5,122 nt of DNA from Methylobacterium sp. (GTDB lineage: Bacteria; Pseudomonadota; Alphaproteobacteria; Rhizobiales; Beijerinckiaceae): the NCBI GenBank assembly GCA_021154065.1, contig JAJKJG010000327.1, forward strand, positions 1-5,122. Direction: 5' to 3'. The position numbers and the translations under genes are program-made. Position 1 is the stretch's first letter. The number at the start of each line of letters is the position of its first letter. The notes below the pieces were generated by a model. That model was not told the origin of the DNA and did not search any database. It saw only the letters and a list, made by a program, of their open reading frames with translations. Shown one piece after another: positions 1 through 5,122 of the stretch.

Positions 1-607
1 GGAGAACCGCGGGGATTGCCTCAAGGATGAAGAGCCACTGCCACCCGTGCAGCCCAAGGGCACCGTCCAGCTCAAGAAGCATGGCCGAGAGCGGCGAGCC
101 TAGGAAGCTTGAGATCGGGATGGCGACCATGAATGTCGCTACGACCCGCGCGCGGTATCGCGCGGGGAACCAGTACGTGAGATAGAGGATCACGCCAGGG
201 AAGAAGCCTGCTTCCGCCGCCCCAAGGAAGAAGCGGCCTAAGTAGAATGAATAGGGGCCGGCCACGAAGGCCATGCCGATTCCGACCAGGCCCCAGGTGA
301 TCATGATACGCGCGATCCAAAGGCGCGCGCCCACTTTCTCCATCGCGAGATTGCTCGGCACCTCGAAGAGGACATAGGCGACGAAGAACAAACCGCCGCC
401 GATCCCGAACATCGCCTGTGTCAGGCCGAGGTCCCGGTTCATGGTCAGGGCCGCGAAGCCCGCGTTGACCCGATCGACGTAAGCAATGAAGTAGCAAAGC
501 ATCAGGAACGGCACGAGCCGGACCATGACTTTCCGCATCGTAGCAGACTCGACCTCCGAAACCGGCTCGGCTAGTGCTCCAGATGCTGTGTTCGAATAGG
601 CGGCCAT
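1..607 (-). CDS. MFS transporter, ACS (anion:cation symporter) family, N-terminal half (runs off left edge)
   Basis: An open frame starts at an ATG at 607-605 and continues without a stop through 202 codons to the window edge; ACS transporters are usually about 420-450 residues, so about half is visible. It is an inner-membrane secondary transporter, and the family typically imports organic anions such as tartrate, phthalate or hydroxyphenylacetate by cation symport. Hydrophobic segments lie near residues 31-50, 67-87, 99-117, 120-142, 155-178 and 189 onward, matching TM1-TM6. YVDRVN (43-48) closes TM1, and GRFFLGAAEAGFFPG (124-138) followed by YWFPARYRAR (145-154) is the typical ACS signature around TM4 and the next loop. 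A good Shine-Dalgarno sequence supports this start; M24 is a weaker alternative. The gene is divergent from the two-component operon. Family assignment is firm; the substrate is not readable. Confidence 0.9.
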   Translation of the reverse strand, partial: MAAYSNTASGALAEPVSEVESATMRKVMVRLVPFLMLCYFIAYVDRVNAGFAALTMNRDLGLTQAMFGIGGGLFFVAYVLFEVPSNLAMEKVGARLWIARIMITWGLVGIGMAFVAGPYSFYLGRFFLGAAEAGFFPGVILYLTYWFPARYRARVVATFMVAIPISSFLGSPLSAMLLELDGALGLHGWQWLFILEAIPAVL

Positions 608-827: not shown

Positions 828-849
828 TTCAAATTTCTCTTAATCCATG

Positions 850-868
850 AACCTGACGCCAACCTGAC
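850..868. promoter_or_regulatory. Tandem 8-bp direct repeat with 11-bp period, candidate OmpR-type regulator binding site
   Basis: AACCTGAC occurs at 850-857 and again, identical, at 861-868, giving repeats one helical turn apart. This matches the head-to-tail half-site geometry bound by OmpR/PhoB-family dimers, for example the PhoB box of 7-bp repeats with 4-bp spacers. A weaker third unit, TTTCAGG at 873-879, keeps roughly the same register. It lies about 150 bp upstream of the response regulator start and about 245 bp upstream of the MFS start. The geometry is seen in the sequence; that the neighbouring regulator binds here is inferred. Confidence 0.55.
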
Positions 869-921
869 AAACTTTCAGGGGTGAGCCCAAGATCGCAGTC
901 GGGGTCTCGGGAGCGCCGCTG

Positions 922-1016: not shown

Positions 1017-1694
1017 ATGCGCGTGCTGCTCGTCGAGGATACGGAGGATGTCGGGGAAGCCATCGTGGCTCGCCTGCGGAAGATCGGCTACGCGGTCGAT
1101 TGGGAAACGAACGGCGCCGCGGCCGATGACATCCTGGGCTATGAAGCTTACGACCTCGTCATCCTTGATCTCATGCTTCCCGAGGTCGATGGCTTATCCA
1201 TCCTCAAACGGCTGCGTCAGCGCGGGTCATCCACGCCCGTCCTCGTGCTGACGGCGCGCTCCGCCATCGGTGATCGTGTCGACGGGTTGGACCTCGGGGC
1301 GGACGATTATCTGGTCAAGCCGTTTGACTACCGCGAGCTGGAGGCCCGCGCGCGCGTCCTCTTACGAAGAGGCGGGTCCGGGTCTCCCACCAACACGCTG
1401 GCTTGCGGCGACATGGTCCTCGATCGCTGCGCTCGATCGGTCCTGGTGAGGGGAGCGGCTGTCGAGCTGACGCGGCGCGAATTCGCGCTGGTCGAGGTTC
1501 TGACCCGACACCCCGGCCGGGTTTTCGGCAAGGACGAGATCATGGCGCAGCTTTTCAGCTTCGACGATGAGCCGCCGACCGAAAATGCCGTCGAGCAAGT
1601 CGTCGCCCGGGTCCGCAGAAAGCTCGCAACATCCGGATCCAAGGCGGAGATCCGTACTCTTCGCGGGCTTGGCTATCAGATCGTCTGTCCGTGA
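1017..1694 (+). CDS. OmpR-family response regulator, TctD/QseB-like
   Basis: A cytoplasmic DNA-binding regulator of 225 residues, the usual length for the TctD/QseB group. The receiver domain (1-118) has acidic pocket E7-D8, phosphoacceptor D51 in ILDLMLP, switch T79 in VLTAR and K101 in YLVKPF. The C-terminal winged helix (about 128-223) has the typical ELTRREFALVEVL, the ENAVEQVVARVRRKL recognition-helix region and the ending RTLRGLGYQI. The ATG at 1017 gives the standard MRVLLVED beginning and has GAAG 9 bases upstream; an in-frame TTG at 1002 would add five non-conserved residues. Its TGA overlaps the kinase GTG by 4 bp (GTGA), implying translational coupling and a cognate pair. The likely role is activation of this operon and possibly of nearby transport genes through the upstream 11-bp-period repeat. 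No catalytic residue is missing. Confidence 0.95.
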   Translation: MRVLLVEDTEDVGEAIVARLRKIGYAVDWETNGAAADDILGYEAYDLVILDLMLPEVDGLSILKRLRQRGSSTPVLVLTARSAIGDRVDGLDLGADDYLVKPFDYRELEARARVLLRRGGSGSPTNTLACGDMVLDRCARSVLVRGAAVELTRREFALVEVLTRHPGRVFGKDEIMAQLFSFDDEPPTENAVEQVVARVRRKLATSGSKAEIRTLRGLGYQIVCP

Positions 1695-3205
1695 GAGCGA
1701 TGTCGGTCCGCCTCAGCGGTACGGATCCGGCAAAACGGCGGAGTGGTCGCCGGCAGCCATCACTGTTCGCTCGCCTCCTTGTGGTGATTGCGACCGTGTT
1801 CGGCGTCGGCGCCGGCATCTTAGGGGGAGCCGCCTGGATCTATGCTCGTGTCGCCGCTGACGAGGCCTACGATCGCCTGCTCGTCGGTGCGGCGTTCCAG
1901 ATTGTCGACTCCATCAGCGTCCCCGAAGGCCGGCGGGCTGCCATCGATATCCCGGTTGCCGCGTTCGAAACGCTTTCACTCGCGCCACAGGATCGCGTGT
2001 TCTACCGCGTCATAGGTCCGAGCGGCGCGACGCTGACGGGCGATGACGATTTGCGCGTGCCGTCGAAAGCGACGCCGGAGCGGCTGGCCTCTGGACCGCT
2101 CGTGCTCGACGACCGCTACAAACAAACGCCGGTTCGAGTCGTCGCGGTCGGTCGCTACCTCAGCGATGCGGACGTTCCCGGCTGGGCGATTACGCTGGTC
2201 GCCCAGAGCCGTGAAGCCCGATCCGCTCTGGCGCGCGATCTCACGGGTAAAGCGCTCATTCTGTTGCTCGGCATGAGCGCCCTTGGCATCCTGTCCGTTG
2301 CGGTTGCGATCCGGCTTGCGCTTGCCCCGTTGTCACGCATCGAAGCTGCGCTGCTCAAACGCGATCCCCACGATTTGCAAGCTCTCGACGTCGAGACACC
2401 ACGCGAGGTGGAAGCACTGATCACCTCCATCAACGGGTTCATGGAGCGCCTTGCGGGTCGGATCCGGGTCATGCACCGCTTCATTGCCGATGCCACCCAT
2501 CAGATCCGAACTCCGCTGACCGCCCTTGCGTCCCAAGTCGACTTGCTGCGCGACGAGCCGCACGAGGAGCGCCGCGCCCGGCAGATCGAGCGGTTGCAAG
2601 AACGGACGTCGGAATTGGGCCGGCTCACCAACCAGGTCCTCAGTCACGCGATGGTGATCCATCGCAGTGAAGCGGTCATGTTCGAGAGGGTTGATCTTGT
2701 GGCCGTCGCCCGCCGCGCGCTCGCGGAAGGCGTTCCGCTTTCGCTTGAGCGGTCGCTTCACGTGGACTTCAACGCACCCGCTGAGCCTGTCTGGATCCTT
2801 GGCGATCCGGTCAGCTTGCGCGAGGCGATCACCAACCTCGTCAACAACGCGGTCCAGCATGGAGCGCCAACGCGCCTGGTCGTCACGGTCGAAGGCGACG
2901 AGACCCGTCGCTGGGTCGAAGTCGCGGACGACGGCCCCGGCATACCACCGTCGGACTGGTTGACCGTGCGCAAGCCTTTTGAACGGCTCAAGCAGAGCTC
3001 AAAGACGATCGGGTCCGGGCTCGGCCTTGCGATTGTGGATGATGTCGCGAAGGCGCACGATGGTGCCGTGTCATTCAGACAAGGCGAAACAGACGCGGCT
3101 GGCTCGACGGGGCTGTTTACAGTCACACTCTCCTTCCCGGCCTCCGCGCAGCCGACCTCGGTCGCAAACGCTGGCGTGGTGACTGCGATGAGTTCGCAAC
3201 CATGA
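1691..3205 (+). CDS. Membrane sensor histidine kinase, TctE-like (2CSK_N-type sensor domain)
   Basis: 504 residues from a GTG that overlaps the regulator stop; ATG at 1700 is a close alternative. TM1 spans about 26-50 and TM2 about 186-208, enclosing a periplasmic domain of about 135 residues. Its features EAYDRLL (58-64), DIPVAAF (86-92), DRVFYRV (101-107) and a GATLTGDDDL segment are typical of the TctE-type two-component sensor N-terminal domain. A HAMP-like linker follows (about 208-262), then the dimerisation helix with phosphoacceptor H270 in HQIRTPLTAL, N box NLVNNAVQH (382-390), G1 box DDGPGIP (413-419), F-box-like KPFERL and G2 box GSGLGLAIV (441-449). All catalytic elements are present. 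The H+1 position is Q, not the commoner E/D. The last 20 residues form a low-complexity tail. It probably autophosphorylates, phosphorylates the upstream regulator and receives its signal from the co-encoded periplasmic protein. The ligand is unknown. Confidence 0.94.
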   Translation: MRAMSVRLSGTDPAKRRSGRRQPSLFARLLVVIATVFGVGAGILGGAAWIYARVAADEAYDRLLVGAAFQIVDSISVPEGRRAAIDIPVAAFETLSLAPQDRVFYRVIGPSGATLTGDDDLRVPSKATPERLASGPLVLDDRYKQTPVRVVAVGRYLSDADVPGWAITLVAQSREARSALARDLTGKALILLLGMSALGILSVAVAIRLALAPLSRIEAALLKRDPHDLQALDVETPREVEALITSINGFMERLAGRIRVMHRFIADATHQIRTPLTALASQVDLLRDEPHEERRARQIERLQERTSELGRLTNQVLSHAMVIHRSEAVMFERVDLVAVARRALAEGVPLSLERSLHVDFNAPAEPVWILGDPVSLREAITNLVNNAVQHGAPTRLVVTVEGDETRRWVEVADDGPGIPPSDWLTVRKPFERLKQSSKTIGSGLGLAIVDDVAKAHDGAVSFRQGETDAAGSTGLFTVTLSFPASAQPTSVANAGVVTAMSSQP

Positions 3206-4347
3206 TTGTGCGTCACCTTAAGTCCTGCGTTGTTCAACTCGCCGCATCACTCCTCGCCTTGGTTGTCGTGCCTGCGGCGGGAGAAAGCCGAGAAGAGGTC
3301 CGGTTCGCAGCACCGACGCCGGGGGGAAATGTCGTTCTCGCCATCCACGCAGCCACCGACATTGATGCTCTCGAACCGTTGATCCGCGACTTCCAAGCGG
3401 CGTCTGCCCCGGACGTAACCGTCACGTACACGGAGTACCAGACGAACGATCTCTTTGCGGTTGCGCGAGACGACTGTCTCCACAGAAGCAATACCGGAAG
3501 GAGTTCGGCTCAAATCGATGTGATCATCTCGTCGTCCGTCGACCAGCTTGTTAAACTCGTCAATGACGGCTGTGCTACGCCTCATCGTTCCCGCGAAACG
3601 GCCGCGGTGCCAGACTGGGCCAAGTGGCGCGATGAGGTTTTCGGATTTACGTTCGAGCCTGCGCTCATCGTCTACAACCGTGATTTGGTCCCATCTCATC
3701 AGGTCCCGCGTACCCGCGTAGAACTCGTTGAGCTCTTGCGGTCCCGGCCCGAGCTCTACGCTGGCAAGGTCGTAACCTACGACGTGACACAATCCGGGAT
3801 CGGCTATCTCTTCGCCTTCTACGACGCATACAGCGGCGCCACGACGTATGGGCGTTTGATCGAGGCCCTTGGTCGGGCGCGCGCGGTCGTTCGCCCGACG
3901 TCGGCCGACATGGTTGCCGACATCGCGGGGGGACGCTTGCTGATCGGCTACAATGTCCTTGGGTCCTATGCCTATCGAGCGCTGCGAGATGGGGCCCCGA
4001 TCGGGATCGTCGTGCCGCGGGAGTACGCGCTCGTTCTGAGCCGCGGGGTGATGATCCCCGTTGGGGCCAAACAGCCGGAGCTGGCGGGACGCCTCCTCGA
4101 CTACCTTCTCTCATCCAGAGGTCAACAGAAGGCGAGCGCGGGAGCGTTTCCCTTTGGCTTTGATGCACCCTTGCCGCCGGACATCGACGGCCCCGTGATG
4201 CTGGCGCGCTCGAGTCTGTTTCGCCCGATCAGCATTAGCGTCGAGCTTCTGGCCGTGCAGGATCGCGCGAAACGCGAGAGGTTTCTGACAGAGTGGGGAC
4301 GCTCACTCGCCCCTGTTGCCTCTGCCCTTGACTTGAACACGCCTTAA
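3202..4347 (+). CDS. Periplasmic solute-binding protein, iron-type ABC SBP family, probable sensory component
   Basis: 381 residues with an export signal: basic start MIVRHLK, hydrophobic stretch about 9-26, likely cleavage after A25-A26-G27. The mature protein resembles iron(III)-type (class II) binding proteins such as AfuA and PgtC: an opening strand VVLAIHAATDID, then VTVTYTEYQTND, a DVIISSS core strand, GFTFEPALIVYNRDLVP marking the crossover to the second lobe, KVVTYDVTQSGIGYL, and MIPVGAKQPELAGRLLDYLLSSRGQ near the end. C92 and C124 are the only cysteines after the signal peptide and could form a disulfide. ATG overlaps the kinase stop as ATGA, so it is co-translated with the regulator pair. 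No permease or ATPase follows; the next gene is convergent. The best inference is a dedicated ligand sensor for the kinase, though it may also serve a transporter encoded elsewhere. The ligand is unknown; a phosphorylated or organic anion is possible from the AfuA/PgtC resemblance. Confidence 0.85.
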   Translation: MIVRHLKSCVVQLAASLLALVVVPAAGESREEVRFAAPTPGGNVVLAIHAATDIDALEPLIRDFQAASAPDVTVTYTEYQTNDLFAVARDDCLHRSNTGRSSAQIDVIISSSVDQLVKLVNDGCATPHRSRETAAVPDWAKWRDEVFGFTFEPALIVYNRDLVPSHQVPRTRVELVELLRSRPELYAGKVVTYDVTQSGIGYLFAFYDAYSGATTYGRLIEALGRARAVVRPTSADMVADIAGGRLLIGYNVLGSYAYRALRDGAPIGIVVPREYALVLSRGVMIPVGAKQPELAGRLLDYLLSSRGQQKASAGAFPFGFDAPLPPDIDGPVMLARSSLFRPISISVELLAVQDRAKRERFLTEWGRSLAPVASALDLNTP

Positions 4348-4538: not shown

Positions 4539-5122
4539 CTACTGGGGCGGCCACAGAGGCGCGACCGTCGCGTCCCCTTGACCGCTCCTCGCGAGCGCTT
4601 CGGCGACGAAACCCGAAACCTTCATCTCCTCGACGAATTGGCGGAGGTAGCGGGTTCCGGCAACCCGGCCTTTCGGCGTGCCCATCGCCTGCTCGATCGC
4701 CATGAACCGGCCCTCCAGCACGCGCACGTTCGGGTGCGTCTTCGCGAACGCCAGAAGCTGCTGCCTCACCCCGGCGGCGGCGTCGAGTTTCTCGTTCAGG
4801 AATAGCTCAATAGCTCCTGGCGAGGTTGGGGCATGGACGAGTTTTGCCTGCTTCAGGGTGCGCGAGAGATAGAGGTCGTAAGCGGCATTCTTGCCGGCCG
4901 CGATGCGGACACCCGCGCGATCAACATCCTCGATCGTCTGCAACGGGGAGCCGGCAGGCACGAGGTAGCCGCCCTCGATCAACACGTAAGGGGCCGTGAA
5001 AGCGATTTCGGCAGCACGCGCCGGATCGATCGCGAGAAAGGCGATGTCCCACCCGCCCGTTTTGAGCGCGTCGAAGACCTTCGCGGCAGCATCGAAGGCG
5101 ATGAGCTCGACAGGTACGTCCA
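4539..5122 (-). CDS. ABC-type periplasmic substrate-binding protein (SBP_bac_3-like), C-terminal part (N-terminus beyond right edge)
   Basis: The frame enters at the right edge (first full codon at 5120) and runs about 193 codons to a TAG at 4541-4539; family members are about 250-280 residues, so some 60-90 including the signal peptide are missing. Features of polar amino-acid-type binding proteins are clear: VFDALKTGGWDIAFLAIDP, then EIAFTAPYVLIEGGYLVP, the hinge-following TIEDVDRAGVRIAAGKNAAYD, and YLRQFVEEMKVSGFVAEAL near the end. A GTG at 4985 lies inside the protein and is not the true start. It is unrelated in fold class to the SBP of the sensory operon and is transcribed towards it. 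It would deliver a small solute to an ABC importer; permease and ATPase genes may lie beyond the edge. The substrate is not determinable. Confidence 0.85.
   Translation of the reverse strand, partial: DVPVELIAFDAAAKVFDALKTGGWDIAFLAIDPARAAEIAFTAPYVLIEGGYLVPAGSPLQTIEDVDRAGVRIAAGKNAAYDLYLSRTLKQAKLVHAPTSPGAIELFLNEKLDAAAGVRQQLLAFAKTHPNVRVLEGRFMAIEQAMGTPKGRVAGTRYLRQFVEEMKVSGFVAEALARSGQGDATVAPLWPPQ

Follow-up and report, generated by a model that had tools for sequence, protein, structure and literature searches.

Does a solute-binding protein (SBP) that is encoded directly behind a two-component system, with no transporter of its own, serve the sensor kinase? The question is raised by a 5,122-nucleotide stretch of Methylobacterium sp. 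DNA (contig JAJKJG010000327.1; the whole stretch is called the window below), in which positions 1017 to 4347 encode an OmpR-family response regulator (RR), a TctE-type sensor histidine kinase (HK) and an exported SBP. The trio is a real and widely conserved system with an unusual fused form in relatives. It probably senses a citrate-type carboxylate, which may be a metal-citrate complex, as a three-component system that depends on the SBP and controls uptake, and it would be a variant of BctC-BctDE with an SBP of an unrelated family. Gene anatomy, conservation of the arrangement, kinase-SBP fusions, the relation of the SBP to MctA, and the recurrence of a regulator box before citrate-type transport and metabolism genes were all computed here.

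The three genes of the original prediction were recovered by open reading frame (ORF) and Pfam analysis. The TctD-like RR gene (1017-1694, plus strand; PF00072, E 4.9e-27; PF00486, E 1.5e-18) starts with ATG at 1017, a TTG at 1002 being likewise in frame. TctD was the second-best NCBIfam model for its product (E 5.1e-60), and because the 202.8 bits of this match fall below the equivalog cut-off of 337 bits, the RR is best described as kin of TctD rather than as a TctD equivalog. The HK gene (1691-3205, plus strand) encodes 2CSK_N (PF08521, E 4.3e-31), HAMP (20.8 bits, below the cut-off of 25), HisKA (PF00512, E 1.6e-11) and HATPase_c (PF02518, E 4.9e-20) domains, which together with the OmpR-type regulator place the pair in the TctD-TctE family, the HAMP match being sub-cut-off. 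The periplasmic 2CSK_N sensor domain covers residues 41-184 (1811-2242, plus strand), and hydrophobic segments at residues 29-47 and 189-207 form the two membrane segments. An AlphaFold2 model of the HK had a mean pLDDT of 84.9, and the Foldseek matches listed for it were kinase cores. The SBP gene (3202-4347, plus strand) encodes a protein of the MctA/3c9h type with matches to SBP_bac_8 (E 1.9e-11), SBP_bac_1, SBP_bac_11 and SBP_bac_6, and with an N-terminal hydrophobic segment (residues 9-27) that resembles a signal peptide. Of the two 4-bp overlaps proposed originally, the ATGA shared by the HK stop and the SBP start (3202-3205, plus strand), an arrangement of translational coupling, is clear. 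The GTGA, in which the GTG start of the HK at 1691 overlaps the RR stop, is likely and not proven, since an ATG at 1700 provides an alternative HK start. As had also been stated, no ATP-binding cassette (ABC) partner follows the SBP gene: neither a permease nor an ATPase gene was found within the window by ORF and Pfam scan, and the next gene is convergent.

Conservation of this arrangement was assessed in two sets of relatives. For the close set, a genome collection was scanned with an alignment of 31 SBPs, which gave 307 pattern matches and 286 relatives, and the best 80 of the 286 were used. The wider sample comprised 297 genomes of one order, with at most six candidates scored per genome; 80 genomes contained 86 matches at E <= 1e-40, with scores of at least 488 bits in 13 of the 297 genomes and of 396 to 197 bits for the remaining matches. 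Wide context was viewed for 82 of the 86, three lay in short loci, and one fragment (contig C122 of G299) was left out. Automatic class calls were corrected by hand for L192 and for one gene each of L176 and L072. Because the two sets overlap slightly (L003 lies in G001, and L071 and L185 look like one contig from their length), counts over both are not fully independent. In the 80 close loci, a TctE-type kinase gene was located directly upstream on the same strand of 80 of the 85 SBP-family genes; the other five were four ABC-type paralogues (L024, L066, L072, L076) and L034 (2-3427, Phyllobacterium sp. YR531), where a trio-type SBP has no kinase in the 2.3 kb upstream before the contig ends. 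Among the 82 SBPs of the wider sample, the kinase was encoded just upstream in 44, fused in 12, and in 19 the SBP gene was divergent from the RR-HK pair; a permease gene was next in 3, and 4 were of other kinds. Each of the three SBPs from short loci had the kinase directly upstream. The survey for regular cognate permease and ATPase genes that had been proposed with the original prediction thus found a permease gene adjoining the SBP gene in only those 3 of 82. A start codon exactly at the place of the HK/SBP overlap was found in 77 of the 80 close relatives and, among the wider unfused relatives with both genes on one strand, in 32 of 44 (the sets share a few genomes), so this overlap is not due to chance. 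The SBP is therefore encoded and conserved together with the kinase, as expected of three-component systems of the BctC-BctDE kind.

In the 12 wider-sample genomes with fused genes, kinase and SBP occupy one open frame of 793-847 residues (with the chosen start). A protein search with one fused protein, in which 8000 candidates were scored, gave 639 relatives at E <= 1e-60; of these the top 120 were all fused, 803-867 residues long (about 830 being typical of Labrys, Devosia and Inquilinus), with 2CSK_N, HisKA, HATPase_c and SBP_bac domains, and the sources named for fused proteins include Labrys, Devosia, Inquilinus, Pseudoxanthobacter and Pelagibacterium. In the fused form, two membrane segments and the kinase precede a third segment and the SBP. 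The fused proteins examined numbered 132 (120 database entries and 12 derived from the loci, at least one being identical). In all 132 a hydrophobic segment separates the kinase from the SBP, and in 119 an [AV]xA motif stands at its end or up to 18 residues after it; therefore the former signal peptide of the SBP seems to be reused, either to cross the membrane a third time (N-inside, C-outside) or to provide a cleavage site within the chain. A methionine at the segment start or up to 20 residues before it was present in 55 and absent in 77 of the same proteins. In-frame GTG or TTG candidates for an internal start were found in 10 of the 12 fused loci with DNA, in five of these with a Shine-Dalgarno-like stretch, and an internal start at such a codon may be possible in most of the 12. 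That kinase and SBP are one protein in relatives strongly suggests that the two sense together. In a more specific form of this proposal, for which our confidence falls a little short of even, the SBP would be the ligand-specific subunit of a citrate-type receptor kinase; in Labrys, Devosia and Inquilinus it would be a covalent C-terminal periplasmic domain of the HK, acting as a cis-tethered co-receptor or released from a 1:1 polyprotein by signal peptidase. If this is true, the fused forms represent a receptor-kinase topology that is unannounced in the titles and abstract beginnings of the publications found.

A maximum-likelihood tree was calculated from 110 SBPs (the window protein, the wider sample, 14 random close trio SBPs and 10 of the 120 fused database proteins). 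The label 'fused' required two changes on this tree, each imposed by supported branches; because L132, the second origin, sits on a long branch, that origin is viewed with caution. A single branch (100/94) separated the seven ABC-type SBPs from the sensor-linked SBPs (MctA itself being outside the tree). The window SBP shared a group (98/84) with five trio SBPs, of which two are Microvirga proteins, and is 100% identical to protein P0001, which is named as a protein of a Microvirga sp. metagenome-assembled genome. An ABC-importer role of the trio SBP was considered and rejected, with no permease or ATPase gene in the window and ABC-type members amounting to 7 of 167 classified relatives, all in one clade. 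The proposal that the SBP is a co-receptor of the kinase has gained strong indirect support from adjacency, from the fusions and from the confinement of the ABC types to one clade; the kind of SBP originally assigned needed correction.

The original description of the SBP as iron-type and AfuA/PgtC-like holds at the level of the fold only. By sequence, the nearest solved proteins were 3c9h (Agrobacterium, no ligand named; E 8.3e-49) and MctA (7f6e; E 8.9e-30), and with the SBP model (pLDDT 89.9) Foldseek placed 3c9h and MctA (7f6e-7f6u) at ranks 1-15, MctA with E 4e-28 to 4e-26 and TM 0.81-0.85 by target length. The AfuA/PgtC-like label was dropped, being outranked in both searches; AfuA lies far below these two proteins, and a closest relation to the sugar-phosphate SBPs was not found. 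The TctC domain PF03401 was not matched at E <= 0.01 in the Pfam scan of the window SBP, which places the protein outside the TctC/BctC family. The ligand of MctA (metal-citrate) and its ABC-transporter role were taken from titles of Protein Data Bank (PDB) entries, which also name the mutants S26A, D28A, S79A, S164A, T199A and Y221A/F. In alignments, chain index 28 is where the S26A chain and the wild type disagree, and the chain index was accordingly taken as the residue number plus 2. MctA S26, D28, S79, S164, T199 and Y221 then correspond to A51, D53, S111, S198, S234 and Y256 of the window SBP, four of the six (D53, S111, S198, Y256) being identical; since these residues were chosen for mutation, they presumably line the ligand pocket. 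Among 94 close trio SBPs (window included), the D28 place was kept in 94, the S79 place in 90, the S164 place in 94 and the Y221 place in 93; the T199 place was T in 57, N in 26 and S in 11, and the S26 place was A in 70. By sequence, fold and mutated residues the window SBP thus belongs with the MctA metal-citrate SBPs, and its ligand is probably citrate or a similar acid. Citrate is less certain for the window than for the family, because the apparent target gene in the window encodes a transporter of the major facilitator superfamily and not a known citrate carrier. What had been proposed as a possibly undescribed pairing of TctE with an AfuA/PgtC-like protein is instead that of an MctA-relative SBP with a TctE-type sensor and, because of this relation, looks like a second SBP family serving apparently the same citrate-type signal as TctC/BctC.

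Two other accounts of the SBP bear on its pocket and kinship. It could be a true co-receptor whose ligand is a sugar phosphate or ferric ion, as for AfuA- or FbpA-like proteins: the fold superfamily is the same, AfuA, HitA and FbpA-type proteins appear as lower Foldseek matches, and automatic annotation calls many relatives 'iron(III) transport system substrate-binding protein'. However, 3c9h and MctA are ahead of AfuA by at least 10 orders of magnitude in Foldseek E value and clearly so by sequence, and tricarboxylate transport genes are frequent neighbours, which makes such a ligand quite improbable. An SBP that stabilises or inhibits the kinase without any small ligand would agree with the one variable pocket position, Asn standing at the Thr199 place in 26 of the 94 close trio SBPs; yet the same proteins scarcely vary at the D, S, S and Y places, as expected of a working binding site, and we give this account very little credence. 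As a separate observation, Cys 92 and Cys 124 occur in all 94 close trio SBPs and a vicinal Cys-Cys at 232-233, just before the T199-type position, in 90; the window SBP keeps Cys 92 and 124 and has Pro-Thr in place of Cys-Cys 232-233, and the fused and divergent types mostly have none of the four cysteines. In Mesorhizobium (L066, L072), the gene after the trio encodes a second SBP (E 2.6e-78 to MctA for the L066 copy; two of the seven ABC-type relatives were compared with MctA), followed by permease and ATPase genes, so that an MctA-type importer adjoins a sensor trio.

A recurrent upstream motif points to the genes that the trio would control. An 11-bp direct repeat with the consensus TGACAGGTTnnTGACAGGTT was first spotted in 101 non-redundant upstream regions including the window, where the best dyads occurred in 38 of the 101 compared with at most 7 in five shuffled sets. 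A matrix was then trained on the 100 other regions, the window being excluded, and it scored above 12 bits in 66 of these 100 compared with 1 of 300 shuffled regions; all 66 sites point away from the regulator gene. In the window, the matrix identified a predicted RR box at 842-871 (minus strand, toward the divergent gene; core GTCAGGTTGGCGTCAGGTT) with 24.4 bits, the next best site having 12.4 bits. Across 2.64 Mb of related loci, 138 sites exceeded 14 bits compared with 6 in a reversed control. Among the close trio loci, 61 of 80 had a box no more than 3.5 kb from the SBP gene; in the wider sample this applied to 33 of 44 kinase-upstream and 7 of 12 fused loci. Outside the training set, it was found in 14 of 19 divergent-type loci, with TctC as the nearest labelled gene each time, and at 6 of 7 ABC-type SBP genes. 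Related loci also share a conserved TA seven bases past the second repeat, which suggests that this repeat lies within the -35 region of the target promoter.

The genes under the box were assigned by Pfam on representatives for TctC, TctB, TctA, 2HCT and citrate-binding ATP-grasp targets. In 40 of 82 cases the gene that adjoins the regulator gene upstream is divergent and of TctC type (33 in cluster 5, 7 in cluster 16; Pfam on one representative each). Elsewhere this place is taken by a 2HCT carrier gene, identified by Pfam in L018 and by cluster in L064; by a citrate-binding ATP-grasp gene together with a CoA-ligase-like one, assigned by Pfam in L001 and by cluster in L002-L004; or, in Methylobacterium L008 and L022, by an NMT1-type ABC operon (Pfam). 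MctA-like ABC operons were also among the likely targets preceded by a box. TctA was encoded within 8 kb in 45 of 81 close family members and in 61 of 82 from the wider sample. The link to tricarboxylate transport that marks the TctD-TctE family is thus present in relatives, and the neighbour in the window is a divergent major facilitator superfamily (MFS) gene (2-607, minus strand; N-terminal 202 aa, cut by the window edge; PF07690, E 1.5e-23), at a site that in relatives is taken by tctC(BA), 2HCT or other transporter genes. Neither this gene nor the box was part of the original description. For this MFS fragment the best NCBIfam models, HpaX and 2A0114, were both far under cut-off; we infer that this transporter is under the control of the trio and that its substrate is the ligand sensed. 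The ATP-grasp protein (428 aa) and CoA-ligase-like protein (900 aa) of L001-L004 (about 2600-6700, minus strand) lie under a box and, from Pfam on L001 only, resemble a split ATP-citrate-lyase-like or citryl-CoA pair; these loci have more boxes before other Tct-type cluster genes and a small gene (c38). In Microvirga tunisiensis (L005, 18-10044), two tandem RR-HK-SBP trios are separated by an NMT1-type ABC operon with a box before it.

No site above 14 bits was found in 17 close loci, namely 16 of Phyllobacterium type and L079. When a strict box pattern was applied to five such Phyllobacterium genomes, sites were found in three, each with one directly before a tctCBA operon remote from the trio; one of the three had a further site (L205), which was not before a Tct gene. 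After the pattern had been adjusted to the variant, sites immediately preceding tctC-tctB were found in 10 of 10 Phyllobacterium-type genomes (the two earlier misses and eight new ones). The expectation of a remote target was thereby borne out in 13 of 13 genomes searched, which cover 13 of the 16 Phyllobacterium-type loci (L063, L028 and L034 were left out). Because the adjusted pattern read backward also matched in 4 of the 10 genomes, one to three times each, single hits without a tctC context mean little; among the other hits of the adjusted pattern, 0 of 11 lay before a Tct gene in the 1.5 kb viewed. In the L079 genome, a strict-pattern box precedes another RR-HK pair that is broadly of this class (L204, 2999-5415; RR 197 bits, HK 82 bits) with no nameable transporter operon, hinting at cross-regulation or a shared box.

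These target genes bear on the alternative of a plain TctDE system, whose kinase would detect the carboxylate by itself through its sensor domain, the SBP being only a co-regulated scavenger that feeds a TctAB, MFS or ABC transporter. TctDE of Pseudomonas aeruginosa controls tctCBA, with no such SBP mentioned in the accessible part of the report (PMC4513871); the SBP gene is divergent from the RR-HK pair in the 19 of 82 loci noted above and heads a tctCBA operon in several (L136, L139, L149); and MctA is named a transport SBP in PDB titles. This alternative is nevertheless unlikely, as the SBP gene is coupled to the kinase in 44 and fused in 12 of the 82, the best 120 of the 639 database matches are all fused, and several target transporters already own an SBP (TctC, MctA-like) or by family need none (2HCT, MFS).

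In the SBP-dependent system that we prefer, the overlapping genes would keep SBP production in step with that of the kinase, and the SBP would bind its ligand in the periplasm. The loaded SBP would dock on the 2CSK_N domain of the TctE-type kinase and alter kinase activity, phosphorylation of the regulator would follow, and the TctD-like regulator would bind the direct repeat at 842-871 and switch on the divergent transporter gene. The identity of the ligand, the contact between SBP and kinase, the direction of the response and the binding of the regulator to the box are proposed from kinship, fusion and the operator.

Several points weigh against this system. Neighbouring sbp and kinase genes are not always linked in function, AgtS and AruS showing no binding according to the part of the source available (PMC11113362), and kinases of the TctE class may be able to bind citrate on their own. 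For 276 kinase-SBP pairs, with an effective number of 97 (80% identity) and without a shuffled-pairing control, direct-coupling analysis gave no usable contact signal, the top inter-protein couplings crowding into few columns. The mirror-tree partial correlation in 76 trio pairs was 0.40 for sensor and SBP compared with 0.65 for kinase core and SBP, and the corresponding correlations were about equal in 58 fused pairs, which shows no preference for the sensor domain. At the presumed pocket positions, the window SBP departs from MctA twice, with Ser for Thr199 and Ala for Ser26, and 8 of 17 divergent-type pairs carry Ala in place of Ser164. No box lies within 3.5 kb of the SBP gene in 19 of the 80 close relatives. 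The window box is located about 235 bases before the MFS start (304 with a later start), and its target is this MFS gene and not a known citrate carrier.

At the other end of the window, a convergent fragment of a SBP_bac_3-like binding-protein gene (4539-5120, minus strand; PF00497, E 1.6e-6; cut by the window edge) encodes a family-3-like (EhuB- or SsuA-like) protein with its partners not in view, and is probably outside the sensory system.

Only about 10 SBPs that activate a sensor kinase have been characterised, according to the accessible part of one account (PMC9602780), and gene adjacency alone can mislead, as noted in the available text of another (PMC11113362). In the widespread family described here, the coupling is conserved, a solved relative indicates the ligand class, and an operator can be predicted along with target operons. 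The natural kinase-SBP fusions fix the partner and make activation of the kinase by the SBP testable in one polypeptide.

Several known systems can be compared with the trio, in each case as far as the portions of the cited papers available describe them. Among the literature matches listed, with titles and abstract beginnings considered and subscription papers mostly outside, no publication dealt with an MctA-type SBP partner of TctDE or with kinase-SBP fusions of such topology. TctD controls (opdH-)tctCBA in P. aeruginosa (PMC4513871), and a Salmonella case is described (PMC5812351), with no dedicated SBP mentioned in either portion; the accessible part of a further paper on P. aeruginosa TctDE (PMC6403454) contains nothing on an SBP partner, and a review table lists TctE/TctD with TctA, TctB and TctC in rhizobia without an SBP partner (PMC7020829). 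BvgS/EvgS-type kinases likewise combine SBP-fold domains and a kinase in one polypeptide; there the SBP-like domains form the periplasmic region (PMC8534201), whereas in the fused relatives the SBP is C-terminal, behind the ATPase domain and the third segment. MctA (7f6e-7f6u) is the closest solved relative with a named ligand and shares pocket residues, but is the SBP of an ABC transporter by PDB titles, unlike the trio SBP with no ABC partner. GltB with GtrS-GltR is another case of an SBP reported to act on a two-component system. In Pseudomonas syringae, the SBP AatJ is likewise required together with the two-component system AauSR for a nutrient response, AatJ differing as part of an acidic amino acid ABC transporter locus (PMC7386598). 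In logic, CuaD-CuaSR of Ruminiclostridium cellulolyticum is, on the text available, the closest, with a dedicated second sensing SBP, distinct from that of the transporter, encoded beside the two-component genes; it differs in being clostridial and responding to cellobiose, and fusion is not mentioned in that text (PMC10384115). The closest known system is BctC-BctDE of Bordetella pertussis, where likewise a TctDE-type pair and an SBP are needed for the response to citrate and control a TctCBA-type transporter (PMC5812351, PMC9602780). BctC is a TctC-family protein and the SBP of the transporter itself, whereas the SBP described here is of the MctA/SBP_bac_8 kind and is encoded with the kinase, and in the trio relatives TctC is a separate gene of the target operon.

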